Source: Asparagopsis taxiformis (lineage: Eukaryota > Rhodophyta > Florideophyceae > Bonnemaisoniales > Bonnemaisoniaceae). From it: 64,000 nucleotides of DNA. Under the pieces are notes generated by a model. The model did not search any database and was not told where the DNA came from. It saw only the letters and a program-made list of their open reading frames with translations. The stretch covers positions 1 to 64,000 of the forward strand of contig JALQPE010002363.1 in assembly GCA_030407315.1 (NCBI GenBank), given 5' to 3'. A program made the position numbers and the translations under genes. Positions 2,691 to 64,000 of this stretch are shown one piece after another (position 1 is the first letter of the stretch; each line of letters begins with the position of its first letter).

Positions 2691-2696
2691 AATTAA

Positions 2697-7665: not shown

Positions 7666-7667
7666 GC

Positions 7668-10080: not shown

Positions 10081-10096
10081 GCATCGCACACATTTT

Positions 10097-11905: not shown

Positions 11906-12009
11906 TATACAATATATCAGCGAAAACCGGGAGGGAAGAAATTACAGCGGATGGTAAATTCAGGGCCCATATCGGACCGTATTTTATTCTCTCATTTAGG
12001 AAACTGCTC

Positions 12010-32269: not shown

Positions 32270-33670
32270 TAGAGGATAGAACGACGGTGAGTATGCCAGT
32301 TTGGAGAGTATGCAGCGAGGGAAGGGTGTGTTTTGAGTCGTACTGTTGTCGTTGATGCGATATTGATTCATTAGAAGCTTCGTGAGTCATGGTTTGCATG
32401 TTGTGAACCATGGGAGGCAGGTAAGTAAGTGAGTCTCGCGGGTGTGCAATAAGGGATGCATGGGTTTTTAGTCTGACTGTTCTGGTTCATTTTGATGTTG
32501 TATAGGTGGTGCAGGAATAGTGATGAAGTAAGGTAAGTTTCATTGAGCTGAAAGACGGGTTTCGCGATGAAATGGAATGCCGACTACATTTTTTCGTTGC
32601 ACGATTTGTGAATTATTGGTTGTATTGTTTGTATGATGCAACGAGATGAAGAGGTTAAGTGCGTCCTGAGGGTATGAAGCGAGGGAAGTGTTTGTTTTAA
32701 ATTTGACTGTCGTCTTTTATGCAATATTTATTTATTGGGAGCTTAGTGAGTCATGGTGCATATTTGCTGAAGGGTGGAAGGGAGGTAGGCGAGCATTTGA
32801 GGGGTGCAGTGAGTGGAATGTGGGTTTTGAGTCTGACTGCTGTGGTTGATGTTGATTTTGTGTAGGTGATTCTGGAATGGTGATGACGGAAGGTAAGTTA
32901 CATTGAGTGCCTAGTTAAGTTGCGCGAAGATATGGAATGCTGACTACATTTTTTTGTATAATTTTTGACTTATGGTTTCTATTGTGTGCAGGATACAACG
33001 AGGGTAAGTGAGTTCTGAGGGTATGCAGCGAGGGAAGCATGGGTTTTCAGTCCGACTGTTGTTGTTGATTTCGATTTTTTGTAGGTGATGCAGGAATGGT
33101 GATGACGGGAGGTAAGTTGCATTTAGCGCGCAGTCCGGTGGTGCGAAGATGCGGAATGTTGACTTCATTTGTTGGTTGTGAGATTTTCGACTTTTGGTCT
33201 GTATTGTGTGTAGAATGAAACGAGAGTAAGTGAGTTCTGAGGGTATGCATCGAGAGAAGTGTTTGTTTCGAATCTGACTATTGCAGTTAATGCGATATTT
33301 ATTCATTGGAAGCTTATCCAGTCATGGTGCGTATTGTGTCGAGCGAAGGAAAGTGCGGAAGTTTTGAGAGTATGCTGAGAGGGACATGTGGGTTTTGAGT
33401 CCGACTGTTGTTGTTGATTTCGATTTTATGCAGGTGATGCTGGAATGGTGATGACAGAAGGTAAGTTTCATTGAGCGCCAAGACTTGTTTTGCGAAGATA
33501 TGGACTGCTGACTTTGATTATTCATTGCAAGGTTTTTGGATCATGGTTTGTATTGTGTGTAGGCTGGATGAGAGGTAAGTAAGGGATTTTCTAAGATATC
33601 TGGCGTGGTAAGCGTTGCTTTTGAATCTGACTGTTGGGGTTGATGTTGTGTATGTGATGCAGGAGTGGTG
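32270..33670 (+). other. Array of microexon-like blocks with splice signals (right TIR)
   Basis: Four 27-nt blocks begin near 32506, 32865, 33085 and 33434. Each follows an acceptor-like ..TAG or ..CAG after a T-rich tract and is followed at once by GTAAGT. In one frame they encode GAGIVMK, DSGMVMTE, DAGMVMTG and DAGMVMTE. Shorter blocks of about 12 nt (near 32275, 32991, 33213 and 33562) also sit between acceptor-like and GTAAGT/GTGAGT-like signals. The 27-nt block is followed by a 12-nt block 121-128 bp later each time. Sequence between blocks is also repeated. Confidence 0.5.
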
Positions 33671-34281
33671 AAGCAGGAACGGCAGGACTCAGGGAGAGTG
33701 AAGAAGGGATCTAGGAAGATGGGGAATGAAGCTGTGAGGTGTTTCTGGTATGTGTATATTTTCGGGCATACGATAGAAGTAAGAGTGGGTTTCAAGTCGT
33801 GTAAGATTTTGCTGACCATGTTCGTGTTTCATGTCTTGATGATTTAATGGGCTGGGGTGGTGTCGAGGAAAGCGGGGATGGTATTGGGAAGGAGCAGATT
33901 TTTTGTAATCTAGGTCGTGAGGGTTCTTGAAGTATGTGCGGATGGTGGTGCATGGCGTTCGGATGGTAGGGAGAACGCGATAGTGAGGGAGATGGGTGAT
34001 CGACGGTATGCCGACAGGTATTTTGTATTCTGGCTGGATACGTATTCCATATTCTAGCTGGATACATATTCCGTATCCTGGCTGGATACGTATTTCCTAT
34101 TCTAACCGGGTATTTATTTCCTATTCTGACCAGATATGTATTTCCTATTCTAGAGAGACGTATTGTATACCAGCAGTTTCGTAAATGAGAGAATAAAATA
34201 CGGTCCGATATGGGCCCTCAATTTACCATCCGCTGTAATTTCTTCCCTCCCGGTTTTTGCTGATATATTGTATACTGAATG

Positions 34282-34540
34282 TCGGGTCCTAGGATCCCGC
34301 CAGACGTACTAGAGAAAGTGGATGTCGGGTCCTAGTACTCCGCCGAACGTACTAGAGAAAGTGGATGTCGGGTCCTAGTATTCCGCCGAACGTACTAGAG
34401 AAAGTGGATGTCGGGTCCTAGGATCCCGCTGAATGTACTAGAGAAATTGGATGTCGGGTCCTAGTATTCCGCCGAACGTACTAGAGAAAGTGGATGTCGG
34501 GTCCTAGTATTCCGCCGAACGTACTAGAGAAAGTGGACGT
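34282..34540 (-). repeat. 43-bp tandem repeat, about 6 copies (right TIR)
   Basis: Reverse complement of the left array, with unit GTACTAGAGAAAGTGGATGT plus CGGGTCCTAG and a variable centre (ATTCCGCCGAAC or GATCCCGC). More diverged than the left array. Confidence 0.8.
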
Positions 34541-34667
34541 CCGCATCCAAAAAATTTTTATTTTTTTTCGGACGCGGACGTTCATTTGTTCTAGTAAATC
34601 TCGGGGCCGACTAGGACCCGTACTAGAGAGACTGGACGTCCGCGTCCACTTCCGAAAACACAGACGA

Positions 34668-35396
34668 TGGAGCAGGTCGGGCACGGGATGGGGAGTCAGA
34701 GGTTTTCGAAGAGTAAGCTGCAGGGGAAGTTTGTGGAGAGGGCGAAGGAGAGGGGTTGAAGGTAGAGGAGAGAGGTATTGAAGAACAATACGTTGCAAAG
34801 GTGATGGGGGAGAGCATGGTCGAGGAGTTAGGGGTGTTTTTCCTTATTCTGAGGTAGTATGAGGACTGGTTATACGAAATCTGTACGGTAAAGCCGAAAA
34901 GTAGGTATGGAATGGAGGTGTGCACCGTGGAAGCGGGGACAGGTAGCTGAAAATGCGCGCTAGAGTGGTATTGGGGGTGTTTGAGGTACAGTACGGGGGA
35001 GGTGAGCACCAACAGGAAGGGGGTGTGAGCGAGAGGATGAAAAAATTAAAGACGAAATTGGAGTCGACCGACAAGGAAAATTAGAGTGGTCGCCGTGATG
35101 GATGCGGACATCCATGTCGAGCACGGCGGCAGAAATTTCTGGGGTCGAAATTTTTGAATTTCTGAACCGGCGCCCGTCCTAGGCGGACATAGACATGGTG
35201 GAAGTCCATCCCGAGGAGGACATCCGTGGTACTAGAAACAATGAATGTCGTCCTAGTAATACTAGACGTACTAGACCGCATGGACGTCCGGTTCTAGGCG
35301 GACATCCAAAAATACTGGACAACATGGACGTCCGCCTAGTAATACTAGGTGTACTAGAGGTTGTGGACGTCCGCGTCCATTTCCGAGAACACAGAC
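34668..35396 (-). repeat. Right TIR of outer element
   Basis: Reverse complement of 704-1440. It begins directly at the tip of the inner element (ACACAGAC, then GATGGAGCAGG) and ends CCGAGAACACAGAC at 35396. Contains the same GGACGTCC and CTAG-pair motifs. Confidence 0.75.
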
Positions 35397-36189
35397 GGTG
35401 AGGTACTGAAACTGAGTTTGCCTTGGACTGCTGAGAGGAAATTTTTTTCTTACCAATATCCTGCTCGCCGATGGAGGTGGATGATTGTTTGCCACACTAC
35501 TGAGTTTGAGATCAAAAAATGTAGTAAATTTACTGCCTGAGGCAGTAAAAATCACTGCCTGAACAATGTAGTGCCTGAGGCAGTAAAATTACTATTTTAA
35601 TTTTTTCAGTTCTAGTGCCGCAGGCAGTAAAATACAAAATTTCCTGGCAGTACGGTATGTAGCAGAATTCAGTACTGTACGATAGCAAATTCTAGTAATT
35701 TTTGCTGGTACCACAGGGCAGTAGTGCAATGCAGTGATTTTTGATGATTTCTGCAATGGAATGTACTGCCGTACAGTACAGCCCTGGCAAATGACCTGGC
35801 ATTAGAATCAGGCAGTAAAATATACTGGCTCCGGCAGTGAATTGTACTGCCTGCAAGTACTGCCTTGATAGTAATTGGTGTTTGGTAATATCTGAGACTC
35901 AACATTGAAATAGTTGTACAGGATAGGGTCATTGTGAAATGTGTTTGCATATGAGTTCAAGTAGATAAGAGAGGAAACTATTCTGAAGCTACTAGTAGTG
36001 AGAAGTATAGAGGATGCGTGGTCACATGGAGATGACCGTTACAGAAAAGGTAGGAGAAAATCGGTCGTTTTCCGAGGATATGAGTAGAGTAGTTAGCATT
36101 ATTTGTTACTATTGCTAGCATTCTCGTTGCAGAAAAAGCACTTGGAGTGACACTTTGTGATTGGAACGGGAGGCGAAGTTCGACGGAAG
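35397..36189. other. Spacer with left ACTGCC/GGCAGT motif array
   Basis: From about 35530 to 35880 the motif ACTGCC or its complement occurs many times, including the palindrome TTTACTGCCTGAGGCAGTAA. The first 130 bases and the last 300 before the next gene show nothing recognisable. The matching array is at 49400-50580. Confidence 0.65.
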
Positions 36190-37713: not shown

Positions 37714-39337
37714 TTATGGAAGCGGATAAGTAAAGTTTCATAACCTCTGAAGTAAAATAATTACGACGAGGCAGACTGAGGAGAAATAGAAACCTTTCGA
37801 TATGAACCTGTCTAGGGCATGAGGGGAAGAATTGCTACGTAAATACCTGGTGTACTGGAAACAAAAGCTATCGTTCTTATTTTTCCGCTCACACTGCGAC
37901 TAGAAAGCGTCATATCTACGACGGTTAAGAGTTTTACCCTGTCATTGAGCACGCCTGTAATAGCTTCGGGGCCTGTGCAATCCTATCCAATGCCGTAGCT
38001 CCACCTGGCAGATTAGTGTGGAAAATAATACCGGGTATTATTTTGAGGAATATTTTGCCAAGTGGAGGTCAATCATTGGTACAGAATGTAGACACGCCCT
38101 GGTGGAAGAAACAGGCAAGAAAGATATGAATGATGCATTGATCGATACCATCGACTTAGTCGAGGTAGACTAATTCTGAACTGTCGTGTAGACCCATCTA
38201 GAAAAGATAGACAAACGTTCTACTGGGAGGCGAAATCGTGTACGGTAGGACGAGGTGCATCTACAGGAGAACTATTCTGTCCAACAATAGCATCATTCCC
38301 AATTCTGTCTAGCTCGCTGCAGATGGTATGTCCGCTGAAGATGCTGGCAGGGAGGTTCAAGTATGCGGTTCCTAAAAGATGTTCCTGGGAACTAGCTCGA
38401 GAGTTCCATATGGGAGAGGGCCCTGAACAGGTTTCCATGTGAATGAGAACGAGTCCGAATACTTTAAATTGGTTTTGTCCGGCAGCTGAGAGTTCTCCTG
38501 CAGTTCTCTACTTTGAGGGACGCAAGTGTCCAGGAGTAAGAATATCTGTGGTTGATACAGTCTTACTCTTCAGACTCTCGAATCAGAACGATAGTGTTAC
38601 TCATTCCTCCAGATTTCCTGTATACAGAGGAGCCCACGAGAACAGCATTTGTAGATGAAACAGTCTCTTCATGAGCACCGTCTGTTAGAGTTCCCAAAAT
38701 TATTATGACAGAGGACCCAGAATCGTGTCGTGTTTTCTTCCACTAGAAAATGGTATAGTTAGGGAATATAGAAATGGAAGGATCTTGAGTACTTTATAGG
38801 TCGTATTATTTTCCAAAGTGGATTGGTAGCTCTTTTCTCACCCAGTTGAAAGTCTATTCAGAGGATTGTAATGTCATTATGGGCACGCAATAGTCCATTA
38901 CATATCGATCCATCCAGGATCAAAAGATATGTTGAGATTCGCAAAATCGACTGAAAGCTTGTCGACGACATCAACTAGAGTATTCCCGTCTACAGCTATT
39001 ATGAAATCAACTCTAAAACTGGTCGGTTCATTGAGGGCGAGATAGAGATAATGAATGGTGAACATCCTCCAGGAATTGTAATCATACCCATAGCAAATGA
39101 TGGGCTCCCGGAGGACTATACTGTTCCTATTATTGAGTTGGAGGTCGACAAGTCTCCAACTACAAATGCATCTTTCCTTCTGGATACTGTAAAAGTTTCG
39201 ATCCCAGATGAAATGGAATGGTATCCATGCAGGAAAACATAATGCTCTCTTCGAAAATGCATCTTACTTGAAGATGAACAGGATACTACTGCCAATGACC
39301 GTCATGCATCCAAGCTTAATAATTTCGACTTTTCTCA
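37714..39337 (+). pseudogene. Degraded coding remnants, unidentified
   Basis: Short plus-strand stretches read like protein but are broken by stops and frame changes: about 38030-38170 (YFEEYFAKWRSIIGTE, EETGKKDMNDALIDT) and about 39010-39330 (NGEHPPGIVIIPIANDG, VPIIELEVDKSP, VSIPDEMEWYPCRK, ASYLEDEQDTTANDRH). They may belong to one gene. No family recognised. A solo ATAATACCGGGTATTATT at about 38025 resembles the satellite core at 39385. Confidence 0.35.
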
Positions 39338-39660
39338 AATACTAGACTGCACCTGAAAAAGGCTCCAACACAGCCATGGACTATACCCGGTATTATTTTG
39401 GGTACGCCAAGTACAGGTGCAGTACTGCTATTGGCTGCCGGTCGGCAGGCCGCCTGTAGCCAATGGCAGTGCTGCACCTGTCATTTGGTATGGTAAAATA
39501 ATACCCGGTATTATTTTGGGTATGCCAAGTACAGGTGCAGTACTGCCATTGGCTGCCGGTCGGCAGGCCGCCTGTAGCCAATGGCAGTGCTGCACCTGGC
39601 ATTTGGTATGGAAAAACTATACCCGGTATTATTTTGGGTATGCCATGTACTCGTGGTACT
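39338..39660 (+). repeat. Palindromic satellite, block 1 (about 3 units)
   Basis: Units of about 115 bp with core TACCCGGTATTATTTTGGGT, then ACAGGTGCAGTACTGCCATT and its inverted counterpart AATGGCAGTGCTGCACCTG. Block 1 begins with the same leader (ACTAGACTGCACCTGAAAAA) as block 2 at 43775. Confidence 0.8.
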
Positions 39661-41279
39661 GTGACGAGCATGACTGCTGCCAGATCCGTATGAATCGGCA
39701 CGTGAGTCTGTGAGTTCCCGGTCGTGCGCTCGGGAGCGTGCTGACTTGAATTGCATATCGGTTGAGTGAGTTTAGGGGGTGATTGTGATAAGATTGTGGA
39801 GGAAGGAAGGGAACACGAGCGCTGGACTAAGCTGCTGATGTTGAGCGCAAATTCTGGTTGATCATCAAGTGGATTCAACAATTCAAGCGCGTGCCAGTCA
39901 ATTTTTTTTGGCGATATTCTCATGGTTCTTCTTCATTGCATGGAATTTAGCACCAAAAATAAGCACAACTCCATCATTTCGAAATGCATCCACACCACGT
40001 CTCGTCTCGTCGCATCGCACCGTCCGACGCGCCGCAGCGCAGGCAGCGCGACACGTGCAATATTTATCATGCGAGTCAGCGACTCGCGTCAGGTGGCTCG
40101 AGCAACGGCAGCTATTCCTGGACGCTGGGGCGCGGCGGTCACGTGATACGGACGCACAGACTCTGCGGAGCAGTGCGGCGCGGCGCATCGAGCGGACGCC
40201 GGAGCGGGCGCACAGGGGGAGCGTGCACTCGGTTGCGACGCAAGAGGCACACGACATATGGATGTGATCTACACGCAGCAACGGGCGGCATGACGCAATC
40301 GACGTCTCTCGAGTCCCACATGTGGGACGACACGACTGTGCGGCAGCACGCCACGCGATGGCATGGCATACTGGGAAACGGTCCGGTCGGTACGCGCTTT
40401 CCGCGTCGATGATGTGCCGTGCGCGCGCGTGTGCGCAACATCCAACGCTCCCATGGCGTCAGACTTGTGCGTATACCATTCGTCGCCCTGCAATGCAACG
40501 ACGTGTCGTCTCACGACAAGTCGCGACATACCCCGGGGCAAGTGGCCACTTGTCGGCCAACCATCTTGTGTGAAATCAGCGCTTGCATCACGACGACACT
40601 CGCTCGCGGGTCCGCTCTCGATCCGTCGACGACAAGTATGCCCAACATGGCCAGAGGCGATCTCTTGCACACGATTGCCGTCAACGGACAGAAACCGGAC
40701 GCGTGAGCGAGCGACCCACGGATGAAGCGCATCTGATCCGAGCCGAGCCGATCTGAGCCGAGCCTCGCACAACTCGCCGATGGCCATGCGTTGCATCCGA
40801 TGCGTCGACGCATCGCGAGTGTTTTATACCCGCGAGATTGCGCACCAATGACGTGACTCGACATCATATCGAGGCGATCATCGCCTCGATCTCTCGATAG
40901 CTTGATTTGTACCCGCGCTAGCACGCGCGTGATTCTACGTCGTGATACGTTGCATTCCATCCACTTGCACGCACAATTCATCACTCGCGGGAGATGGACC
41001 GCGCGTCGGAAGGTGGATGCAATTGAGGAATACACCGTCTGAATCCATGCAGAGCGACCTCGCCCACTGTCCCGTCATACACGAGCACACACGCTGTAAT
41101 CGCCCTCCGAGTAGCCCATCACCGTCCTACCGACCGGACTGAATTGACGAGCGTGCCGCGACATTTATACTCTGTTTTACATTATAATGTGTGTGTGTTA
41201 ACTATACACACACACACACGCTCTAGTTAGCCTCTTCCATCCCAGCCCAGCCGTCACAATAAGTAGCGCTCCACGACCG
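39661..41279. other. GC- and CpG-rich non-coding island
   Basis: From about 39960 to 41160 the composition changes sharply to GC-rich with very many CG dinucleotides (CGTCTCGTCGCATCGCACCG). Open frames here look compositional. A 23-bp near-palindrome (ATCGAGGCGAT C ATCGCCTCGAT) lies near 40876. Near 41186-41222 a (GT)n stretch faces an (AC)n stretch. The block may be unmethylated promoter-like DNA or sequence from a different source. Confidence 0.5.
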
Positions 41280-43749: not shown

Positions 43750-44770
43750 TAGTATATATACTAGTATATATACTAGACTACACCTAAAAAAAGGTCCAGC
43801 ACAGCCATGGGCCCAGCTTGTGGAGTCAGACTGCAACCACTGGCTGTGTTGCACCTGGCTTTTGTCTGGCAAAATAATACCCGGTATTATTTTGGGTATG
43901 CCAAGTACAGGTGCAGTACTGTCATTGGCCAGAGGCCGCCAGCCGTCCGGCAGCCACTGGCAGTGCTGCACCTGTCATTTGGTATGGCAAAATAATACCC
44001 GGTATTATTTTGGGTATGCCAAGTACAGGTGCAGCACTGCCATTGGCTACAGGCGGCCGGCAGCCTGTAGCCAATGGCAGTGCTGCACCTGGCTTTTGTA
44101 TGGCAAAATAATACCCGGTATTATTTTGGGTCTGCTAAGTACAGGTGCAGTGCTGCCATTGGCTGCCGGTCGGCCGGCCGCCTGTAGCCAATGGCAGTGC
44201 TGCACCTGTCATTTGGTATGGAAAAATAATACCCGGTATTATTTTGGGTATGCCAAGTACAGGTGCAGTACTGCCATTGGCTGCCGGTCTGCCGGCCGCC
44301 TGTAGCCACTGGCAGTGCTGCACCTGTCATTTGATATGGCAAAATAATACCCGGTATTATTTTGGGTATGCCAAGTACAGGTGCAGTACTGTCATTGGCT
44401 GCCGGTCGGCCGGCCGCCTGTAGCCAATGGCAGTGCTGCACCTGCCATTTGGTACGGAAAAATAATACCCGGTATTATTTTGGGTATGCCAAGTACAGGT
44501 GCAGTACTGCCATTGGCTGCCGGTCTGCCGGCCGCCTGTAGCCACTGGCAGTGCTGCACCTGTCATTTGATATGGCAAAATAATACCCGGTATTATTTTG
44601 GGTATGCCAAGTACAGGTGCAGTACTGTCATTGGCCAGGGGAGGCCGGCAGCCTGTAGCCAATGGCAGTGCTGCACCTGGCATTTGGTATGGCAAAATAA
44701 TACCCGGTATTATTTTGGGTCAGCCAAGTACAGGTGCAGCACGACCATTGGCTACCGGTCGACTGAAGCA
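43750..44770 (+). repeat. Palindromic satellite, block 2 (8 units of about 118 bp)
   Basis: Core AATAATACCCGGTATTATT at about 43872, 43990, 44106, 44224, 44342, 44460, 44578 and 44695 (116-118 bp apart). Each unit is a long inverted repeat: GGTGCAGTACTGCCATTGGC on one side, GCCAATGGCAGTGCTGCACC on the other, GC-rich centre. Centres vary between units. A 26-bp AT palindrome (43750-43775) stands at the left edge. Confidence 0.9.
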
Positions 44771-49399: not shown

Positions 49400-50580
49400 T
49401 CATATTCTACTACTTTCCCGTTCTGCCCGAGTCAGTACCGCCAGGCACTACAATTTACTGGTTCAGTATAGACTTCCCGGCAGTAAATTGTACTGTCTCA
49501 AGCACTAGTTCCAGGTAGTGAAATGTACTGCCACAGGTAGCACTTCCAGGTAGTACACTGCACTGCCACAGGCAGTAACTGGTACTGTCCTATGCCCCTG
49601 TCGAGTACCACACTATCAGACAGTACTTTACGCTGATCTGGACAGCTCTATAATACATCAAAATCTACTACTTTTTGTAGTGCTGTGGGGCAGCAATTCA
49701 CATATCCTGGAGCAGTACAGCGTGGCAGTGATTTACACATACGCAAGTAGTAGAGCACGGCAGCACTTTCCACCACGGCAAGTAGCACGGTACGGTAGCA
49801 CTTTTCGTATCATAAAGCAGTACTACCAGGCAGCTTTTCCCAGAGACTATCAGCACCTCATTTCATTGCTTTCACACATTTCGTCAGACATCATAATTTA
49901 CTGTCCCCACTCGCTTCCACAGGCAGTAGAATACACAGCCTCGAAGCATGTCTGCTGTCATCATATTCCACTGCATTACTCTACTGCCAGAACATAGACT
50001 TGTCACTACCTGTAAGTACAAAAAAAAGCAGCACCACACAGCAGCAGAAATTACTGCTTTGTCCAATAATAGAATACAGTACATTTCTCTGCCTCTGCCA
50101 TGACTTGCAGGCAGTATCATACAGTACATCGGGGCACTACCTAAATATAGCAAAATGTGCTGCCGTCATTCGGGCCCGCAGCCAGCACAGCACGCTGCCG
50201 GAAACACTAGCTTCTACTGCCACACGGTGCATCCCACGCCACCAAATAGTACTGCCGTGGGCCATATTCCTGGACAGCATATTTTACTCCCTCCCCGTGC
50301 TGCCCAAGTCAGCACAATATACTACTTTATTTTACAGGCCAATGTAGCACAAATCACTGCCAGAAAGACAATCTAAATCCAGCAACTATCACTGCCTCCC
50401 ACCACTGCCTCACGTCATACATCCAGGCAGTACTTTCTACTGCCGTCGGCAGCACATGGCCACTGCCTCCGGGCAGTGCACTGTACTGCCGGCAAGTAGG
50501 GCATTAATTTATATTTTTACAGTACTAAATTTTACTGCCTCAGGCAGTAAATTTTACTGCCGTACAGTACTGCCCCAGCC
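49400..50580. repeat. Right ACTGCC/GGCAGT motif array
   Basis: Dozens of ACTGCC or GGCAGT motifs, densest at 49430-49620 and 50380-50580, where palindromic arrangements occur (TTTACTGCCTCAGGCAGTAA). The array overlaps the last 26 bases of the ParB-like gene (stop at 50554). It mirrors the left array at 35530-35880 and fits transposase-binding subterminal repeats. Confidence 0.7.
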
Positions 50581-52074
50581 CGATTTCAGACACAGTAGTG
50601 CAGTCTGGATGCTAGAGTCATCTGCATTTGAAGTTTGCAAATCTTCTGCATCTTCGTCTGAAGCACTAGGTGCACACTTCGGGCCTGGTTCCTGTGGTTC
50701 CTGAGTCTCGGCAGGGTTTTGATGCAGTGAAGGTTCTGATGAGTTGAGTTCATTACCTGATTCGATGTTTCCCTGAGGATCGCATTTTTCTCGGAGAACA
50801 CGGCTTTGTGTATCCATATACTTCTTCATCATCCAATCGAACTGAGATGGACATGCACTCTTGAATACCTTGAGCAATGAAGGAAGTATGTCAATGTCAT
50901 TTCCAGCGTTACTGAGTACCTCTTCATCGAGAACAAACGTACGAAGAAGATTTTTCTGAATTACTTCCAGGTCTTTCGGCCATACATCGGAACCCAGGAA
51001 GCGTTGAAACTTCTCGGCCTCAAGACGAGCAGCTTTGGCTGCTACAACTTGTTTTTGCATGAAAGCCGCGGGGACAGTACGAAAGTTGTTCTGCTTGCAG
51101 TACATCTGCGCACGGTAAAGAGAATTGATTTGGTCCGCTTCAGTGGAGTTCATGAACGCAGAGGAGCCTTTGAGAGTATTCGTAGAGATCATATCTCTAT
51201 ACACTCTACAGTCAAGGGTTGGGAGTGGATTGAGTGAGCGTCCCTGCGATGATGCTCTCTGTTTCTCATAAGATCTCGCGAGCTCCGGGTGTTCCCCGTT
51301 CACCAATTCCCCAACCTTTTCCAGCACAATGCTAGATAGTTTCATAACACACCCAGCAAGCTGTCTCTGAGTGCTAGTCGACCTTCCATCCCCTCCTGCG
51401 TAAAAATCAGCGACTGCTGTTACGAATCCCTTAGGGATCCTAGAATCATCCAGACATCGCTCCCTTTTCAACGTATTACAGTCGTCATGAAGAGATTTCA
51501 TAAGGTCGAAAACTGTCGTTTTGATGATGTAAGAGTCCTCCTGAAGAGCGTTCCTTGCTCGAGCGTACGCACGAAGCTTATCTAAGGGTGATGGGTTTGT
51601 GCACAAAACAGTCCAAGAGAACCCAGCCCATTGCTCTGGTGACTTTTCCATCAAGCGCTGAAGAACAAGGAGGCGGTGAAAGCCATCTACGATTCCGAAC
51701 CAAGCCGCAAACTTTTGAACTTCCTTTTCTGCATCTTCGTTGTTCATTCCATGTTCCTCCATGAGATAGGATTTCGGATAACTGCGAAAAGCACCTTCAA
51801 GTTTAACAACGACAGCTTTGTTCCCGGCACTGCTTATTCCTCTCTCTATTATTCCATTTTGAGCCCCACTTCCGGTTGTGAAGCTGTGCTCTAGTCTATC
51901 GAGGCCTGAAGGAGATATGTGGCGAACTTTTGTGAGAGGCACGCATGATCTTGGGTCTACCTGAATGATTCTTGCACCTTCTTCTATGTCGCCAAATAGG
52001 ATTTGAACACGCTGGATTTTCATGGGTGGAACATCTTTCTCACTTTTTTTCCTTGGTGTAGACTTTCGCGGCAT
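50554..52074 (-). CDS. ParB-like domain protein, second family
   Basis: 506 aa from MPRKSTPRKKSEKD at 52074; the upstream frame lacks a better ATG. A basic N-terminus leads to a ParB/sulfiredoxin-like domain: conserved GIVDGFHRLLVLQRL with DGFHRL at 130-135, preceded by a strand-rich region (VDPRSCVPLTKVRHI). ParB-type domains bind DNA and hydrolyse CTP or act as nucleases in bacteria; in eukaryotes they are known mainly from mobile elements. The remaining 350 residues are helical (AYARARNALQEDSYI) and not assigned. It shares the DG-HRL motif but little else with the ParB/dioxygenase proteins. Divergently placed from the DUF7869 transposase, 1.4 kb apart. Confidence 0.65.
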   Translation of the reverse strand: MPRKSTPRKKSEKDVPPMKIQRVQILFGDIEEGARIIQVDPRSCVPLTKVRHISPSGLDRLEHSFTTGSGAQNGIIERGISSAGNKAVVVKLEGAFRSYPKSYLMEEHGMNNEDAEKEVQKFAAWFGIVDGFHRLLVLQRLMEKSPEQWAGFSWTVLCTNPSPLDKLRAYARARNALQEDSYIIKTTVFDLMKSLHDDCNTLKRERCLDDSRIPKGFVTAVADFYAGGDGRSTSTQRQLAGCVMKLSSIVLEKVGELVNGEHPELARSYEKQRASSQGRSLNPLPTLDCRVYRDMISTNTLKGSSAFMNSTEADQINSLYRAQMYCKQNNFRTVPAAFMQKQVVAAKAARLEAEKFQRFLGSDVWPKDLEVIQKNLLRTFVLDEEVLSNAGNDIDILPSLLKVFKSACPSQFDWMMKKYMDTQSRVLREKCDPQGNIESGNELNSSEPSLHQNPAETQEPQEPGPKCAPSASDEDAEDLQTSNADDSSIQTALLCLKSGWGSTVRQ

Positions 52075-53456
52075 TCTGCAACAAATCACAAACAACACTG
52101 CAATGCCTATGGAAGAGTCTCTGAACAGTCACACTTCATATATTGCCAATAGACCCAGCACTTCCGATAGATCAGTACCTATCTTCTCAAGATTAGTATT
52201 GCAAAGTCAGCGGAGCGAAAGGGATAGTGTTCAAACGCGTAGTTGGGATGATGAAAACAATGGATCGATTTTATACGCCGGCTAAAGAAGAATATTAAAG
52301 CTTCGATCTTCCATGAAATATTCAGCCGAGTGCAGCACAGTGGGAATGAAATCTATCACGATTTTCCTTGACAAGCGTCTAGTTTCATTGTGAAGAACCT
52401 ATCTATCGACCAATATTGAAAATGCCCTAGACATGACTTGTGTCATATATCGTGAGAACCTGTCATTTCATCTGTGCCAGCCGTACGTTTGGTTTAGAAA
52501 TTGTAGCTGACCTTTAATCAGAATGACTATTGGCCCTTGATTACACTGTACTGGTTACAATGCGTAGACCATACATGGAATTCTCCACCGTGTTAAAATG
52601 GCATCTTTCCATTGGTTGACGGAAACCGCCATGTGCTTCTCCAATCTCTTCATTTCGAAAATGCCCCAAAGATGGTAGCCGTTTGCTTCATTTGTAGCTG
52701 CTCCGCTGTAAAAACACTTTGAGGTATAAGATCACAGATGCTCACCAACTGCCACGAGACCACTTCAATTCAGAAACGTATTGATCCGTTCCTGTGAGCG
52801 AGTTTCCACATGCGCTCTAGACACATCACGTTTGACGTGTGGCCCGGGATGTTGGATTCTCATGAGAAACCACCATCCGTGGATAGCTCATCCCTCCACA
52901 GGCCTCAAATCTGATGAAATTGAATCTAACAGGATAAGAAGGCCTTGCCATCGAGAAATATCATTCTGCCTAATGTAACGAATTGGTTTTGAAACATATC
53001 CTTCTATTGAGAACCGAAAGTTTCTGGAGAGAGATGTTACAGTCCCGTACAAACTGCACGAAACATCACTAAAGCCACTGGTAGTGGGGAGCAAGACCAC
53101 TGAGTACACTCGGCCAGTACGTACGGTAAGTGGCGCCGAAAATTGGAATCAACTCGTTCAATGAGTTTCTCACTTCGCACCAGTCCGAATATCGCTGGAG
53201 CTGAACGGAACATTGAATATTAGTATGGATGATAGATGAAGTTATCGGCTTTCGGGGTATGCACGATGATGAACCTAACTCAAATCAATTTAACGTAACT
53301 GGAAATCCTCTGCCATCACTCCACATCTGCCACAGTCAGACATTGAACTCTTCAGGATTCACGGTTCAACTGAACCCAATTCACGTTTCTTCTACTAGTT
53401 GACGCGTCTCCCACTCCTCAAAATCTGGTCATTGTGTCATCATCACTGGTCTTTTC
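52075..53456. promoter_or_regulatory. Divergent intergenic region, ParB-like/transposase
   Basis: About 1.4 kb between two divergent starts and so presumably holds both promoters. No gene, repeat or clear core element recognised. TTGTTGCAG directly before the ParB-like ATG could be a splice acceptor of a 5' intron. Confidence 0.35.
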
Positions 53457-55850
53457 ATGTCATCCCTCTCAGATTCGGTTTGCATCAACTGCGATGAAGA
53501 TGAACCTGTACTGTCGAGTCCAATTCCTTCACATTTAAGGCTCTCTACTACATTTACCTCAATTGAAACTCCGGAATCGACGCACTTTTTGAATCATCTT
53601 CCTACATATCACCGAAATGGAAAGCCTACACCCTACCGATACTATATTTCTGGTATTTGTAAGCCTTTAAGTCCAAGTTTATCCAGGCGTCGTTACAAAT
53701 TGAAGGAAAGGACTCCACGAGCCGACTCGGTAAGTTCTCTAGAAAAATGGAGGCTGGAGCAGTCCCAGACAAGTCTCAACCCGTTCGAAATGAATAGAAC
53801 CTGCTGCGTGAAACTAGAATGCTTCCGACGAATTGCTACGAACGGTTCTTTCGGCTATACATTTGAAACATATAAGCGAATAATGGCAATGGAGCGAGAG
53901 GAAAGGAAACGGACTCTACTTTTGATGCCCAAGCCCGATGAAGGGCTATTCTATTTCAACAACGAGCGGGTTTGTGGAGAATTCCTTCGATTGGGTTTCG
54001 GGTTTTCTCGAACACTGCAGAGCTGCGTGAAAGGTACTTCATGTGCCCCTGCGTCTAGGTCCGTTGCAGCATTGCCAAGGGCTCCCCGCGAATTCTTATC
54101 CCATAAGGAATCTATTCTCATGTTTCTTGAATCACTTGCGGACACTACGGCACAAATTATGCCTGACAGAGACGAAAAGCACTTACCGGCATTCAAGAAA
54201 ACCGCAGTCTATGAGCAGTTTCGGGAGAATTATGAAGAATATGAAAGTGATGGTTCCGTTCGAGTACCTCCCTCGAAGAGCTACTTCTTTAACATATGGA
54301 AACGTCATTCTTCGCATATCAAAGTTAGAAAGCACCACAAGTTCACGACGTGCTCCGAGTGTAAGCTTCTAAGGTCTGAACTTGACAAGTGCGGTCTCAA
54401 TGAAATTCGTGCCAAGCCTCTTAGGGATCGTCAAAAGATTCATTATGAATACATTGCTAGAGAAAGGCTTGCATACTCTATGAAAGCAAAGATGGCCGCG
54501 AGAAACCCGAAATCTTACTGCTCATTCGTGATAGATGGTGCAGACCAATCCGCTTTTGGATTGCCGCATTTTGTCTTTAACACGAAATCTTCCAGGGGTG
54601 AGAAACTAAAGGTGAAGTTAATTGGCTCGCTAGAGCATGGCTCAGTGAACAACTTGACATTGTTTCTTCTCACTGAAGAGTTTGAAACTGGAGGGAATCA
54701 TATAATTGAAACAATACATCGAGTACTGCAGATGAAGTTCGATACTGGAGCACTACCAAAAACCCTATTTCTACAGCTTGACAACTGCACTAGGGAAAAT
54801 AAGAACCGGTATGTGATGGCTTATATCGAAACGTTAGTAAGCCGGGGTATCTTTGATGAAGTACAAGTCTCGTTCCTCCCAATCGGCCATACACACTCTG
54901 ACATTGACCAATGTTTCAGTCGAACTTCTCAAAGGTTGCGAACTAATGAAGCGTTGAATATGGAACAGATGATGGAGGAACTAAAAATGTGCTGCAATCC
55001 TGAATCTGTGGTTGTTCGGATGAAACATGTCGTAAACTTTTCGGGCTTGTGCATTCTCCAAGGATGCCTCCGAAAAATACCTCCATTCAGTCATTACCGG
55101 TTCTTCCGGTTCACCAGGACAGCTCTAGGAGGTCAGAGTTTTGAAGATGGAGTTCTTTCGAGCGGTAAAAAATGCGCTGTCCGCGTGGCCTGTCTGGATG
55201 ATTGGATTCCTCTTGATGAATCATCTCCTGAGACAGGCTTCATTAAATTTCCCCCAGACCTGAAGCTTACACCTGTTTCCAAACTTCGATCCCCTGATAA
55301 CGTAATAAGCATAAACAAGTGCTTGGAGTCATGCGAGGAAAGGATTTCGAATGCTTCTGTTCTTCGTTCGCTAAGAGAATTGAGAGACCAAGTTTATTGT
55401 GACCGAGATAATCCGTTCCATTGGGATCTGGCACACTCATTTGAGATGAACCAAACGCATATCCTGGATGATTCCGGAGAGGAAGACAATTGCAATTATA
55501 TTCATCCAGGTATTGGATTCGAGTACAACTCTGGTGAGATGGTGGCAGTTAAGACCTCATCATCAGATTGTCCATTTTGGGTTGCTGAGATTCTATCCAT
55601 CTCCCAGAGATCGGAGGATAACGTAATAACCAGGATCAAAATCAGATGGTACGAGCAGTACAGAAATGACACTGATATCTTCACTGCAAGATATGCTCCA
55701 AGCAATACAAAAATCGGGAAAAGAAATGTCCCTTTCATTCAGGAAATCAGTGTTCAGACAATATTGGTGAAGTTCGGACGGCTGAAGAGGGATAAAAGAA
55801 TTAGTGTAAAAGATGCCAAGAGCATCCGAAGCTCTCTTGGGGTTGCATGA
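53457..55850 (+). CDS. DUF7869-type transposase with C-terminal BAH/Tudor-like region
   Basis: 797 aa, single ORF from the ATG at 53457. The core matches the widespread eukaryotic DUF7869 proteins: VIDGADQSAFGLPH (D360), FLQLDNCTRENKNRYV (D442), FLPIGHTHSDIDQCFSR (D482), then KIPPFSHYRFFRF. The spaced acidic residues fit an RNase H-like catalytic site; the family is thought to be transposon-derived. A Cys pair (CSECKLLRSE) lies upstream. The C-terminal 120 residues (SGEMVAVKTS, FWVAEILSIS, IKIRWYEQYR) look like a BAH or Tudor-type chromatin-reading fold. The frame ends at TGA 54 bp before the inverted-duplication breakpoint; the +1 frame leads into the PHD-like remnant. Confidence 0.7.
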   Translation: MSSLSDSVCINCDEDEPVLSSPIPSHLRLSTTFTSIETPESTHFLNHLPTYHRNGKPTPYRYYISGICKPLSPSLSRRRYKLKERTPRADSVSSLEKWRLEQSQTSLNPFEMNRTCCVKLECFRRIATNGSFGYTFETYKRIMAMEREERKRTLLLMPKPDEGLFYFNNERVCGEFLRLGFGFSRTLQSCVKGTSCAPASRSVAALPRAPREFLSHKESILMFLESLADTTAQIMPDRDEKHLPAFKKTAVYEQFRENYEEYESDGSVRVPPSKSYFFNIWKRHSSHIKVRKHHKFTTCSECKLLRSELDKCGLNEIRAKPLRDRQKIHYEYIARERLAYSMKAKMAARNPKSYCSFVIDGADQSAFGLPHFVFNTKSSRGEKLKVKLIGSLEHGSVNNLTLFLLTEEFETGGNHIIETIHRVLQMKFDTGALPKTLFLQLDNCTRENKNRYVMAYIETLVSRGIFDEVQVSFLPIGHTHSDIDQCFSRTSQRLRTNEALNMEQMMEELKMCCNPESVVVRMKHVVNFSGLCILQGCLRKIPPFSHYRFFRFTRTALGGQSFEDGVLSSGKKCAVRVACLDDWIPLDESSPETGFIKFPPDLKLTPVSKLRSPDNVISINKCLESCEERISNASVLRSLRELRDQVYCDRDNPFHWDLAHSFEMNQTHILDDSGEEDNCNYIHPGIGFEYNSGEMVAVKTSSSDCPFWVAEILSISQRSEDNVITRIKIRWYEQYRNDTDIFTARYAPSNTKIGKRNVPFIQEISVQTILVKFGRLKRDKRISVKDAKSIRSSLGVA

Positions 55851-58229: not shown

Positions 58230-58700
58230 CGAACCCTCCGAGGGTCTTGGATGGATAGGACAGATAGTGGAAGGCTTTTAAGCCTGTGACCAAGCGGCTA
58301 TCGATTGGTTGGAGGAAGGAAATTACAGAGGAAATATAGCTGAGTACGGTGCTCGCGATAGCTGTTAGGTTAAAGTCAAATATGTTTTTCGATTATTTTT
58401 CGTACGGAAATGCCTTGGAAAAGACGATGCTTTGTCGTTCTCTTGGAGGGAGTCCGTTGCATTGCACTCAATTCGAGAGCATCGTCATGAAGGAGAGGAT
58501 TCCTTCTGCTTGTTAGAATCGGTTTAGAGCAGATAGCTATTGCATTACTGGCCAGCCCAGAAATTGTAGAATTTCGGGCAGCAAAAATATTGTAAAAAAC
58601 TTTGATTTTAGCGGGTCGATTGTGCCGTACGGCACACCCCCATCTCAAAAACATGTTCACATGTGCATGTTTTTGAGAATAGCCCAAATTTTAACTCAAA
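58230..58700 (-). repeat. Repeat B plus hairpin repeat HR, copy 10 (minus orientation)
   Basis: Repeat B at 58230-58535 and a complete hairpin repeat at 58545-58700, directly upstream of the leader of ParB/dioxygenase copy C. Confidence 0.85.
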
Positions 58701-59048: not shown

Positions 59049-62000
59049 ATGGCGGATACGCATTTCAGCAGTTTGTTTTCAACGGTTTGCGGAGATCAAG
59101 TGAGCGCGTCAGCGGAGTCGCGCGGACTCAAGCGCGGCGTCGATGTCAATTTGTTTGCGGACGTGGACGGTGCGGCTGTGCATATTGGGACGGCTTCGGT
59201 GAGCACTGCTGGTGGCGATGTTGGCTTCCGCGCACGCTGCACAACCACAAGCTGCCGGAAACCGACGAGGCGGACTATATCGTCGTGCGCAACATTGCGA
59301 CTAAGGACAAGTTCAAGGACCTCCCGTTCCCGTACATGTTTGATGGCGCCGAGAGACCGCCGGACACGATGGGTGGAGCATACGCCGCGGCGTTTTTACC
59401 CTTGGGATACTCGGATAATGCGCCCCGCTGCGGAGGATGGCCCTAGCGACATTCGTACCCCTGCTGCAGCGTCAAACTTCAACGCAGCGACGAACCAGGC
59501 CAGCTCGGGACGGATGCCCAGTACCGGTCCAGCAGGCGAAATCACTGGTTCGGGGGGTACGAAGCATCCAGCACGCTCCATTCCGGTTTCGGGAGGCACG
59601 AAGCGCCCTGCTCGCTCTGCAAGACCCTCCAGTGGAGGCACGAAGCACCCTGCTCGCTCTGCCAGAGCCTCCAGTGGAGGCACGAAGCACCCTGCTCGCT
59701 CCAACGTCACCGAAGCTACTACGCAGGACGTAACCGAGGTGGACGACGAAACGGAGGTGGCGGAGAGCATTCGTGAGCAGCAGGGGACGCAAATTACGGT
59801 GCCCAAGTTTGTGACGTCGGATTACGTCGGAGAAGGAGCGACTGTGTTGGTGAGGCAGCTAGTGGAACCAGCCGTGACCCTTCGGGATGTGAAAGAAGAC
59901 CACGTGGAGGACATGCGCAACAATATGTTGGCTGTGGGGTATGTGAGCTCTTCGCGTATCACTGTGACGGTGCTGAGGTCGCAGAACACGCATCTGCCCG
60001 CCGACACGCGTCTGTTCCAGAATGGCAAATTCCATGCCAATGCGAACGTGACCGTGATCGACGGACTGCATCGTCTCAATGCTATGCATAGCATTGCCGA
60101 TGACTTCACGCGCCTCACCCGTATGCACAGAACCAAGCTGCCACAGGACGCAAACCGCTTGCGCTGGGTTACTCAGCCTCTGGATGTGTACTACCTTCGC
60201 CGCAAGGACGACAGTGATCTTCAGCCTCATGAGATCATCCACAAGAGTGCAGAGTCGAACCATACGACTGGGACGCAACTGACGGAGCGCTCCCTGGTTC
60301 GAATCTTGTCGTCCATCCAGCAGTTCATCCGTACGATTGCTGTTGCAAATAACGTGGAAAACGCTGGCGACTTGCGTGAGTCTGATGTCATCCGAACATT
60401 GTTCGAGGCGCAGTTCATGGGGATGATGAATTCAACGAACACGGCCCGGCGGTGGACGCGTTTGGCTATAGCAACGCTGAAGCATCCTGTTCTCGACGAC
60501 GTGTTGCGTGAGCTGAACAATTCCGAGCGCCGCAACGAGATTGGGATAACGCACCTGGACCACAAGATAGTGCGCGAGTTGCTGGAAGAAAACTTTGTCT
60601 TCGTCTTGCGTGGTCTTTCGGAGTACTTGAACCCTGCTCATGGTGGACGTCCGGATGGACGCTTTGACGTGAACGACTTCTATACATACGTCCGTCGCGT
60701 GACTGCAATAGCAAATTCTCTGTACGCTGCGTATGGGCGCCCAAAGAGTATTATGCGCAAGTCATTTCTGAGCACAGAGATGGCAATTGGGTCGGTTAAG
60801 CATCCGAAGGAGTTGCAATGGCATCTCACCAATGCCATTGCAATGTATAGAGGGGACGACCGGAGCAGTGAGGTTCGAATGAGACGGAGAACCACACGTT
60901 TACAGGATTTGGAAACGAACTTGAAAGAGCTTTTCAATCCGACATTGAAGAAGAAGACTAAGGCTCGACGCAAACGCCGCCCTTCTGCTGCCAATGTGAG
61001 ACTCACTCACAAGAAGCAGCGGAATGTCGAACATGAGCCTGCTTCGCATGGCATCCGCCGCCGTTCACAGCGACTTCGCTCGACGGGGAGCACACGCCTC
61101 GAGGAAGAAGAGCCGGTTGTGGTACAACAATCCGCCGGGGAAGAAGAGCAGGCCGTTGTTGATAAACCCACCGATCAACAACAAGCCACTGCTTCCGGTG
61201 ATGAGGTTGACGAAGACTCCGCCCGTTCCCCCGATTCTGCCGTTGAGATTGTCCCCCAAGATAACCAACGTGCTGGTGCGACTCCCTCCAACCAAGAATC
61301 TGTCCATACCGCTTCGGACGAGGAAGACAAAAACGGTGCAGACGAGGGCCAAGTCGAAAGCAAGGGGGTCCGCGAAGTGACAATTACACTCACTGTTCCG
61401 GAAGGAGTGGAAGTCGATGAAGACGGTTACATCGTTCGTGACTCTCCTTCTGAACACGACCTCCTGTTCGACGACCGTATGCCATCTCTTCCTGACGATT
61501 TCGAAGTCAAAGACCGGGCCGAAGGGCATCATCTGGCGCAGCGTCCCGCGGACGTCATCGCATCGGTGAGGGTTGGCTGTCTGCCCCCGATTGAGCTCAG
61601 GTTGTTATTGGAGAGTGTGGAAATCGATGAGGAGGGCAGAGAGGTGAGGTATTTGAAGCAAGTGGCGATGGACCCTGTGTTTGAGGGGCTGCATATTCCG
61701 GAACAACATCGGGCTCGTCATCTTGTTTTGGAGATCGACACCATCTATCCGATGTTTTTCGCAGCGTGGAAGATGGCTGCCAAGGCGATGTGTGAGCCTA
61801 CATCGACGTTTCTACCCTCGAGGCTGGACTTCGCCCAGGTTGCGCGAATGTCTACAAGCTGGAAAGATTCGTATGAGGCCGGCACTGGTATGGCGTACTT
61901 CCACAATTGCCGAACGGAAATCAACGAGCGAGGGTATACGGTGATGCACAATTTCGCGGATGTAAGCTACCTCGATGCGTCGGACAAGTTCCCATTTGAC

Positions 62001-63014
62001 TTGGGTCTCATGGAAGAAATTCCTAACCAGGAATTGTTTCGGTACTTCTTGGGAACATGGGAGGGGGAGCAGGTGCACAAGGACCCTGGGAACCGGCAGC
62101 TGTGGAGTCCCATTGTCAATACGGGGGACGATGAAACAGATGAGAAGAACCGGAATGAGGGGAGGGCTCGCTTCACGTCTACGCGCCACTGCCTGGTTGA
62201 CTATGCCGAGAACGATGAGACGCATATCGACCGGTTCAAGTTTGTGACGCGGCGAGCCCTGCTGGATGTGTGGTTGGGAATCCTTGTCCGGCTGATAGGG
62301 CTGGAGGAGTGCGGTTTACCGGGAGAAAAACTTGTCATGCCGGCATCTGGGGGACGGTTTTTGATAACGGGAAAGGGGTGTCCTCGGCAGGTCCCACACA
62401 ATGATTTCCCTGTTCCTCCTCGCGACCGCAAAGATAAACTTCCGGGTTACTTTGTTATTGCCAACGGAGATGACCCATTCCCTATCTGGGTGTGTCCAGG
62501 GTCCCACAAGTACGTCTTTTCCAAAGCGCTGGAATTAGATATGTACGCCAAGACGATGAAGCTGAAGAAGGTAATCGTTCCGCCACGTTCAGTCTTCATC
62601 GGTCACGGCCATGTACAACATGCCGGGGCAGGGCATGTCGACAGAGTTGTGTCACACACGACAACGAGGTATCACACGTATTTCAGGAATGTGTCGTATC
62701 CGATTCCCGACAATGTTTCGTTTGGTTTCATCAGGCGGTTGGGATTCGAAGAAGAAGTAATCCCCAATGCTCCGCGCCGGTCTGCCAGGCAAAGTCAACC
62801 GGGACCTGTCAATGTTCGCCACAAGACAGTTGTTCCCATCCCGGTCAAGAAAGATCGTAGGCCAAAGACAGGGCAGCTGGGAATGATGCTGATGAAGACG
62901 ACAGAACGCAAGCCAGAACTCAAGCCTATAGCCCACACAATTAGTGGGGTCCCATTGATGCCTATTCTGCCGGGAGATCCTGAATATCAAATTCAGTATT
63001 ATAGTGAGGACTAA
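59049..63014 (+). CDS. ParB-like/2OG-Fe(II) dioxygenase fusion, copy C
   Basis: 1321 aa from the ATG (MADTHFSSLF). Order: N-terminal region; four SGGTKHPARS-type repeats at about 165-220; ParB-like domain around 260-400 with VTVIDGLHRLNAMHSI (DGLHRL 338-343); helical part; basic nuclear-signal-like stretch (KKKTKARRKRRPS) near 635; acidic linker; then a C-terminal PhyH-like 2OG-Fe(II) dioxygenase with ligands H1117 and D1119 (VPHNDF), CPGSHKYV, H1191 (VQHAGAGH) and a candidate 2OG-binding R near 1207 (TTTRYHTYF). The dioxygenase could hydroxylate a DNA base or protein; the substrate is unknown. The long frame is deceptive: a lost C near 59225 and an added T near 59396 cancel, leaving about 57 residues (RARCTTTSCRKP...) out of frame relative to copy B. 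Confidence 0.8.
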   Translation: MADTHFSSLFSTVCGDQVSASAESRGLKRGVDVNLFADVDGAAVHIGTASVSTAGGDVGFRARCTTTSCRKPTRRTISSCATLRLRTSSRTSRSRTCLMAPRDRRTRWVEHTPRRFYPWDTRIMRPAAEDGPSDIRTPAAASNFNAATNQASSGRMPSTGPAGEITGSGGTKHPARSIPVSGGTKRPARSARPSSGGTKHPARSARASSGGTKHPARSNVTEATTQDVTEVDDETEVAESIREQQGTQITVPKFVTSDYVGEGATVLVRQLVEPAVTLRDVKEDHVEDMRNNMLAVGYVSSSRITVTVLRSQNTHLPADTRLFQNGKFHANANVTVIDGLHRLNAMHSIADDFTRLTRMHRTKLPQDANRLRWVTQPLDVYYLRRKDDSDLQPHEIIHKSAESNHTTGTQLTERSLVRILSSIQQFIRTIAVANNVENAGDLRESDVIRTLFEAQFMGMMNSTNTARRWTRLAIATLKHPVLDDVLRELNNSERRNEIGITHLDHKIVRELLEENFVFVLRGLSEYLNPAHGGRPDGRFDVNDFYTYVRRVTAIANSLYAAYGRPKSIMRKSFLSTEMAIGSVKHPKELQWHLTNAIAMYRGDDRSSEVRMRRRTTRLQDLETNLKELFNPTLKKKTKARRKRRPSAANVRLTHKKQRNVEHEPASHGIRRRSQRLRSTGSTRLEEEEPVVVQQSAGEEEQAVVDKPTDQQQATASGDEVDEDSARSPDSAVEIVPQDNQRAGATPSNQESVHTASDEEDKNGADEGQVESKGVREVTITLTVPEGVEVDEDGYIVRDSPSEHDLLFDDRMPSLPDDFEVKDRAEGHHLAQRPADVIASVRVGCLPPIELRLLLESVEIDEEGREVRYLKQVAMDPVFEGLHIPEQHRARHLVLEIDTIYPMFFAAWKMAAKAMCEPTSTFLPSRLDFAQVARMSTSWKDSYEAGTGMAYFHNCRTEINERGYTVMHNFADVSYLDASDKFPFDLGLMEEIPNQELFRYFLGTWEGEQVHKDPGNRQLWSPIVNTGDDETDEKNRNEGRARFTSTRHCLVDYAENDETHIDRFKFVTRRALLDVWLGILVRLIGLEECGLPGEKLVMPASGGRFLITGKGCPRQVPHNDFPVPPRDRKDKLPGYFVIANGDDPFPIWVCPGSHKYVFSKALELDMYAKTMKLKKVIVPPRSVFIGHGHVQHAGAGHVDRVVSHTTTRYHTYFRNVSYPIPDNVSFGFIRRLGFEEEVIPNAPRRSARQSQPGPVNVRHKTVVPIPVKKDRRPKTGQLGMMLMKTTERKPELKPIAHTISGVPLMPILPGDPEYQIQYYSED

Positions 63015-63319: not shown

Positions 63320-64000
63320 CTGAAATAGACGTCCCGTGGATGTCCAGCTCAGATGCATTGCTGGCCAGCCCAGAAACTCTACAATTTCGGGCACAAAAAA
63401 ATATTGCAAAAAACATCGATTTGGGCGGTCGATTGTGCCGTACGGCACACCCCCATCTCAAAAACATGTTCACATGTGCATGTTTTTGAGAATAGCCCAA
63501 ATTTTAATTCAAATCAGGGTGTCTAATTTGGCCACAACGGCCCCAGGAACTGACCGCCGGCCCCGATCGGGGGCTATCACTGGCGTCTGTAAGCACCAAC
63601 TGTAAGCCGGAGCCGGCCGCCGCCCCGATCGGGGCTATCACTGGCTTCTATAAGTACCAACTGTAAGCCAAAATCGCGTCTCACGAAGGGTCGATTTCAG
63701 GCTCAACACGTCAGGGACAGGTCTTGGTCCTTGTTTCTTCATGGTCCCGCCCCACTCTCTCACGACCAACCTGAAATGGACGTCCGGTGGATGTCCAGCT
63801 CGATTGCACTGCTGGCCAGCCCAGAAATTCTAAAATTTCCGAAAAATCAATTTGGTGGTCCAGCATCTCCTGTGCCGAAAATTCCCGCACTCACTTCTGA
63901 TATACTATATCGTAGTAGTAGTAGTCTAGACGTTTTTCGCACTTGTACGCATCAGGGAAGGCGTCATGGAAGGTTGACACTACGCTACTTGTGTACCGCG
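63320..64000 (-). repeat. Hairpin repeat HR, copy 11, GC-rich block and partial repeat
   Basis: Full hairpin repeat at 63320-63525 (minus orientation), the tandem GC-rich block to 63680, a partial hairpin-family repeat at about 63765-63860, and sub-TIR sequence to the window edge. By analogy with 704-2200 an outer-type TIR probably begins within about 1.5 kb beyond the window. Confidence 0.8.

Follow-up and report, generated by a model that had tools for sequence, protein, structure and literature searches.

The 64-kb window analysed here (positions 1 to 64,000 of contig JALQPE010002363.1 of the red alga Asparagopsis taxiformis) raises the question of what a protein that joins a ParB-like part to an oxygenase does in a mobile element. 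The window is one piece of the genome that we searched (141,494,207 bases, 3156 contigs). An earlier reading of the window, called the original prediction below, had proposed such a fusion for its main open reading frame (ORF), 59049-63014 (+), and for two further places. We named the three gene copies L (3186 to about 7147, -), M (26385-30310, +) and R (59049-63014, +). The ORF of R is open over 1321 codons, and its protein, P0001, does hold both parts: a ParB/sulfiredoxin-like region (residues 225-647; 59721-60989, +) with DGLHR at residues 338-342 (60060-60074), and a PhyH-type 2-oxoglutarate (2OG)/Fe(II) oxygenase region (residues 851-1239; 61599-62765, +) with H1117, D1119, H1191 and R1207. 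We found that this ParB-dioxygenase gene belongs to the conserved core of a giant DNA transposon of Plavaka type that was active recently, and we tentatively propose that its ParB part tethers the oxygenase to a palindrome repeated within the element.

The three window copies were, as had been claimed, nearly identical over the 3.4 kb compared (R versus L, 99.88%; R versus M, 98.95%), but none of the three has a clean reading frame, and three is not their number in the genome. Copy L is split by frameshifts, in copy M the frame shifts near 30053, downstream of the catalytic core, and residues ~59-113 of R lie in another frame than in M. The genome contains 907 exact sites of a 24-mer from the dioxygenase core and 986 of one from the transposase of the same element, with 0 sites for the reversed control in either case. 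By these copy counts the element could fill roughly 5-14% of the 141-Mb genome (907 sites of 7-21 kb), the upper figure of 14% holding only if all 907 are full length. The genome search for the ParB-dioxygenase, in which 35 candidates were scored, gave at least 36 matches, 29 of these 36 being free of internal stops. The layout of P0001 recurs in five relatives of about its length (P0002-P0006), and 11 more match the oxygenase part, among them P0010 with 99% identity over 75% of the query.

The fusion is indeed carried by a transposon, since it is located within an element bounded by terminal inverted repeats (TIRs). Element boundaries were taken from a BLAST comparison of 12 copies together with the terminal motif, and left ends were sought in additional upstream DNA of three copies (C519, C1946 and C143). 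Copy M is near full length and runs from TIR to TIR at 11429-35397 (+), with CGTCTGTGTTTTCGGAAGTGGACGCGGACGTCCA at the left end (11429-11462, +) and CGTCTGTGTTCTCGGAAATGGACGCGGACGTCCA, read on the reverse strand, at the right end (35364-35397, -). These TIRs, a feature of Plavaka transposons, are 34 bp long and differ at 2 positions; subterminal 43-bp tandem repeats lie at the left end (11467-11982, +). The full-length element measures ~21 kb (21,262 bases in C519, about 21,025 in C1946), and M is longer, 23,969 bases, because a left-end fragment is nested inside it at 32665-34667. The nested fragment is inverted and has its own TIR; it is possibly a short non-autonomous derivative. The left-end inverted repeat was matched in C519, C1946 and M, and the C143 stretch stops short of the left end. 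The right end is sharp at CAGACG, beyond which the DNA is unrelated in nearly all of the 12 copies; C1805 and R have in common an additional 0.7-kb stretch at a distance past it. Plavaka transposons have target-site duplications of 2-3 bp; two of the three copies read at both ends showed a 2-bp target site match, GT in M (a candidate target-site duplication, 11427-11428 and 35398-35399) and TA in C519, with none in C1946. Plavaka sublineages A and B end in TGT..ACA and CATCA..TGATG, respectively, according to the available part of PMC12730594. The termini found here, CGTCTG..CAGACG, differ from both, so the element was classed as one with a Plavaka-type transposase that belongs to neither sublineage.

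Copies R and L lie in 5'-truncated elements that start within the element, R at 58224 (+; cut by the window edge at 64000, with its right end at 65497, beyond the window) and L at 7972 (703-7972, -). They have 9.6 kb in common at 99.7% identity, 2.3 kb of it outside the element, and for this reason they represent an inverted duplication, spanning 703-10303 on the L side, and not two separate insertions. The arms of the duplication (703-10303 and 55894-65497) enclose 45 kb; the duplication may have arisen recently or may stem from the assembly.

From left to right the element encodes a Plavaka transposase, two genes without known family, a methylase-SET protein and the ParB-dioxygenase. The transposase of M (14178-17216, +; 1012 aa) matched PF18759 with an E-value of 3e-24 (86.3 bits, cut-off 26.3); in M and C519 its gene lies open between the TIRs, and in C1946 it is split into several frames. 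Genes 2 (17294-18598, -; 434 aa) and 3 (18780-19676, -; 298 aa) are open frames without a Pfam match that are present in other copies as well. The fourth gene, an adenine-type DNA methylase fused to a SET domain (20237-23492, -), is frameshifted in M and forms a continuous open frame in C519 and many other copies. In C519 its product, P0018, is read from a single frame of 1079 codons; it matched N6_N4_Mtase (PF01555, E 2.9e-15) and SET (E 1.1e-6), and DpnA (E 4.3e-8) and CcrM (E 0.002) in the PDB. The DPPY motif of beta-type adenine DNA methylases was read directly in P0018. Among the best 106 of 3052 candidates, which were those scored in the genome search for this protein, all 106 matches were 100% identical over the C-terminal 388 residues, and 62 belonged to frames that stay open for 1060 codons or more. 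The methyltransferase that the original prediction had placed next to the fusion is therefore present, but as a gene of the same transposon and not merely a neighbour. The C-terminal part of another N6/N4-type DNA methylase adjoins the element at 10097-11134 (-; E 0.00018, below the Pfam cut-off) and is followed by a tail that by eye is cysteine-rich and PHD-like. In both methylases the second glycine of the usual FxGxG S-adenosylmethionine motif is replaced (DPFSGTF in 20237-23492, DTYAGTM in 10097-11134).

The linkage of these genes was followed at two scales. Among the sites listed up to contig C250 there were 99 oxygenase and 95 transposase sites forming 71 same-contig pairs, of which 24 had the expected order and strand and a spacing of 9-17 kb, 4 had the reverse order and 1 lay on opposite strands. 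Only 35 of the 81 contigs with an oxygenase site in this set also list a transposase site, and many copies are thus truncated or cut at contig ends. Upstream of the 12 compared copies, methylase sequence on the opposite strand was found in nine (partial in C2426), the exceptions being L, R and C415. Transposase sequence on the same strand was found in six (M, C1956, C1805, C143, C519 and C1946), and in three of them it runs up to the border of the DNA that was fetched or matched. In C2426 the transposase pieces are oriented the other way, none were found there in R or C415, the only transposase seen for L is that of M, and for C1622 and C1833 the available DNA ends before this position could be judged.

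The oxygenase part is the better defined half of the fusion. The iron triad H-x-D...H and the 2OG arginine (H1117, D1119, H1191 and R1207) were kept in 15/15 genomic copies and were invariant in a 6-sequence alignment; in a 15-row alignment (A6) one row reads H-x-E, the distal H falls in a gap in P0017, and all four positions do so in P0013. The ratio of nonsynonymous to synonymous polymorphism (pN/pS) among the 15 copies was 0.39 and 0.32, with one copy carrying a stop codon in the oxygenase part, and by this sequence measure the region is under purifying selection. The predicted structure (predicted template-modelling score, pTM, 0.79; predicted local distance difference test, pLDDT, near 90 in the core) contained the double-stranded beta-helix expected around H1117, D1119 and H1191, and the fold searches agreed. 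The top solved matches include KanJ, SnoK, OkaE, AndA and FtmOx1 and, by Foldseek, PHYHD1, and among the viral matches are phytanoyl-CoA dioxygenases together with further 2OG oxygenases. Template-modelling scores in the PDB list were modest, 0.3-0.5, and so indicate a fold in common without implying a function. No match to the PhyH family PF05721 was obtained in any of 15 members at E <= 10, and we therefore place the oxygenase in a separate family on a PhyH-type fold. For the oxygenase no PDB entry was found by sequence, whether the query was the protein or either domain alignment, and PHROGs contained no family for P0001 (among six members the best value was E 0.015, for one member and an unnamed family). 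The 25 pattern matches in viral contigs and 35 in a prokaryote genome collection included no confirmed relative, so that searches of this sensitivity revealed no source in phages or bacteria. Taken together we regard the oxygenase as likely to be enzymatically active.

What such an enzyme would act on divides the possible explanations. It may oxidise methylated DNA in the manner of TET/JBP enzymes, either 5-methylcytosine (5mC) or N6-methyladenine made by the element's own methylase, and so counter silencing. The element does carry a DNA methylase, and the available part of Kojima 2025 (PMC12730594) bears out the earlier statement that TET/JBP genes occur in fungal transposons, namely in Plavaka and others, including KDZ. 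However, PhyH-type enzymes led the fold searches and no Tet_JBP Pfam match was found, so that identity as a TET/JBP dioxygenase is not favoured, although the fold searches leave room for it; TET/JBP chains were also absent among the 50 fold matches listed, which is by itself uninformative. Moreover, the three elements for which CpG observed/expected was calculated gave values of 0.97-0.98. Copies differed from each other by C>T/G>A at 59 places, 21 of them (36%) in CpG; as CpG accounts for 30% of C and 26% of G, the excess is slight. With CpG undepleted and the excess this small, removal of 5mC from CpG, one form of the removal of methyl marks envisaged in the original prediction, is not favoured. 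The suggestion that the oxygenase counteracts the neighbouring methyltransferase stays a conjecture; that methylase resembles adenine methylases. Overall we consider a base-modifying, counter-silencing enzyme of this kind unlikely. An oxygenase that acts on a protein, be it a histone, a host silencing factor or one of the element's own products, with the ParB part as recruiter only, appears improbable to the same degree: the SET domain of the sister protein means that chromatin-protein modification may already belong to the element's equipment, but sequence searches found no match to any characterised protein.

The ParB part was less clear, and a ParB fold around residue 338 was supported more weakly than the beta-helix. 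When 994 of 1000 Foldseek candidates were realigned, ParB-type chains filled the first 16 rows, and the alignments to the pNOB8 ParB N-domain, to KorB with DNA and to one Noc reached past the N-domain into a helical region, from which we infer a DNA-binding helix-turn-helix. On these models the part probably consists of a ParB/Srx domain and a helical region of helix-turn-helix type. The DGxHR-like motif, the conserved active-site motif of the ParB/sulfiredoxin superfamily, was invariant in 6 sequences (D338, G339, H341, R342) and kept in 14/15 genomic copies, C415 having N at 341. The PDB sequence search with this part gave only chance-level MoaC rows (E 1.9). The CTP-type ParB motif is GERR, and the DGxHR of the fusion presumably resembles the DndB/sulfiredoxin form; a DndB profile was matched by 1 of 15 homologs scanned (E 0.021). 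This likeness would suit a ParB-like domain that serves as an NTP-dependent nuclease or nickase in transposition, with the oxygenase as a passenger or structural remnant. ParB/Srx domains of prokaryotic mobile elements are described as NTP-regulated nucleases, or as nucleases or NTPases, in the available part of PMC5512222. A remnant would, however, show neither the retention of the oxygenase residues in 15/15 copies nor purifying selection, and we hold this explanation to be very unlikely.

A second ParB-like ORF, with an IVDGFHRL motif by eye and no Pfam match, lies at 50554-52128 (-) and adjoins a DUF7869 gene of transposase-like look (53403-55850, +; E 1.1e-48); another transposon type at 50554-55850 may thus also use a ParB-like protein. 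Aligned by hhalign with the ParB part of the fusion, this second ORF matched over no more than 80 columns surrounding the motif (P 0.014, probability 3%), and on this result the two are not claimed as one family.

The flanking repeats that had been assigned to each copy are real, but they sit inside one larger transposon. Their length is 180-300 bases, and they are found upstream of three genes (gene 3, methylase-SET and, in triplicate, the ParB gene) as well as downstream of the ParB gene. They contain the 16-bp palindrome TGTGCCGTACGGCACA, which was exact in 49/58 repeat copies; the genome has 6301 exact matches to this palindrome and none to the reversed control. An inverted repeat that follows the palindrome, CTCAAAAACATG-N10-CATGTTTTTGAG, was exact in 52/58. 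The C519 element has six exact palindromes, one per repeat. In the window they lie upstream of gene 3 (19880-19895) and of the methylase-SET gene (23867-23882), upstream (25450-25465 and 25953-25968) and downstream (30702-30717) of copy M, upstream (58621-58636) and downstream (63434-63449) of R, and upstream (7560-7575) and downstream (2751-2766) of L. As in ParB-parS systems, a repeated palindromic site is thus found near the gene. In bacteria, parS is likewise a palindrome of 16 bp, and several operator sites of KorB lie close to promoters; because of this likeness we propose the palindrome as a candidate site of the ParB part. Alternatively, the repeats may be unconnected with the ParB part: the transposase or a factor of the host may bind them, or they may be promoter modules copied from one gene to another. 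They are gene-proximal and duplicated as blocks of 180-300 bp, and CACTA-type elements have subterminal repeats bound by their transposase. Here, though, the repeats cluster around the ParB gene and beside other genes and not at the termini, which have the different 43-bp array. We consider this explanation a real possibility, albeit a somewhat doubtful one.

The reading that we prefer is that of a palindrome-tethered ParB-oxygenase of a Plavaka-type transposon that acts with the methylase-SET protein, and we put it not far below an even chance. The ParB part would recognise TGTGCCGTACGGCACA; the oxygenase would thereby be concentrated on element DNA in all copies and would oxidise a base or a chromatin protein there; and together with the adenine-type methylase-SET it would set the chromatin so that the element stays expressed, as anti-silencing or gene control. 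The fuller version, in which the transposon owns a sequence-addressed epigenome tool and recognises itself, the ParB part reading a parS-like palindrome at about six places per element, delivering the oxygenase and working with the methylase-SET, seems rather unlikely. Several observations weigh against tethering. The model of the ParB part is weak (pTM 0.48), with no Foldseek match in the PDB at E <= 0.001, and P0001 had no Pfam match at E 10 and no NCBIfam match at E 1. The solved fold relatives of the oxygenase act on small molecules, and 7 of the 36 ParB-dioxygenase matches have an internal stop. Column conservation was only slightly higher in the palindrome than in the rest of the repeat (mean 0.991 versus 0.961). 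Other perfect 16-bp palindromes, each single, occur three or four times per element against 0.3-0.4 expected; the repeats were duplicated as blocks, so that the palindrome copies are not independent evidence; and the repeats might instead be used by the transposase or by a factor of the host. The palindrome nevertheless gives the idea of epigenetic cargo a direct test, with one protein, one 16-bp site and one predicted oxidation. If true, the tethering would mean ParB-type site recognition within a eukaryotic transposon, and mobile elements would have a novel means of acting on the chromatin that they themselves form. The fuller version would amount to self-recognition of a giant transposon, which perhaps makes a mark on DNA or chromatin that has yet to be described.

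Further observations concern the window and the assembly at large. Arrays of a 118-bp tandem repeat lie at 39265-39773 and 43759-44737. The genome gave 13 phycobilisome-family matches, 11 of them on contig C469, where two matches of equal score and frame length lie 177,170 bases apart, like a circular plastid written past its start. So many phycobilisome genes on a contig of plastid size indicate a red alga, and the 18S signature is in agreement. The ribosomal RNA (rRNA) unit is of eukaryotic type, and rRNA gene copies on contigs C924 and C2536, outside the window, are mostly ~17.3 kb apart, which points to a long repeat unit.

Transposons with epigenetic enzymes are a known kind, and the ParB-oxygenase architecture was found in no paper of the open-access literature searched. 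No paper there joined Plavaka with ParB, or ParB with PhyH and a transposon, and none dealt with a eukaryotic transposon with ParB, a 2-oxoglutarate enzyme and a DNA methyltransferase; the papers found on a ParB domain, a dioxygenase and transposition seemed, from the parts available, off-topic, and the text of PMC12695648 mentions neither red algae nor ParB. The system resembles bacterial ParB-parS, KorB and Noc in having a ParB-type protein beside repeated short palindromes, several of them near promoters, as for KorB, and differs from them in the DGxHR in place of the CTP-type GERR motif, in the fused oxygenase and in its place in a eukaryotic transposon. With the PhyH-type oxygenases KanJ, SnoK, OkaE and PHYHD1 it has in common the double-stranded beta-helix, predicted here, and the H-x-D, H and R residues; it lacks a family-level sequence match and has a large N-terminal ParB-like extension. 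Phage and plasmid ParB-methylase fusions and other ParB/Srx systems (PMC5512222) likewise have the domain joined to or beside DNA-modifying enzymes, but they are prokaryotic, and the words 2OGFeDO and dioxygenase are absent from the available part of that text. The giant Plavaka repeats of Amoebidium, whose tyrosine recombinases have matches in dinoflagellates or red algae, are described in PMC11244446, in the available part of which the words ParB and dioxygenase are absent. Also close are the fungal Plavaka and KDZ elements (PMC12730594), which in the part available are likewise DNA transposons with a Plavaka-type transposase and a 2OG/Fe(II) dioxygenase gene. Their enzymes are of TET/JBP type, the only transposon-borne dioxygenases in the literature found, and the word ParB is absent from the available text; the red algal element, in contrast, combines a different oxygenase fold, of PhyH type, with a ParB-like part, a methylase-SET gene and CGTCTG..CAGACG termini.

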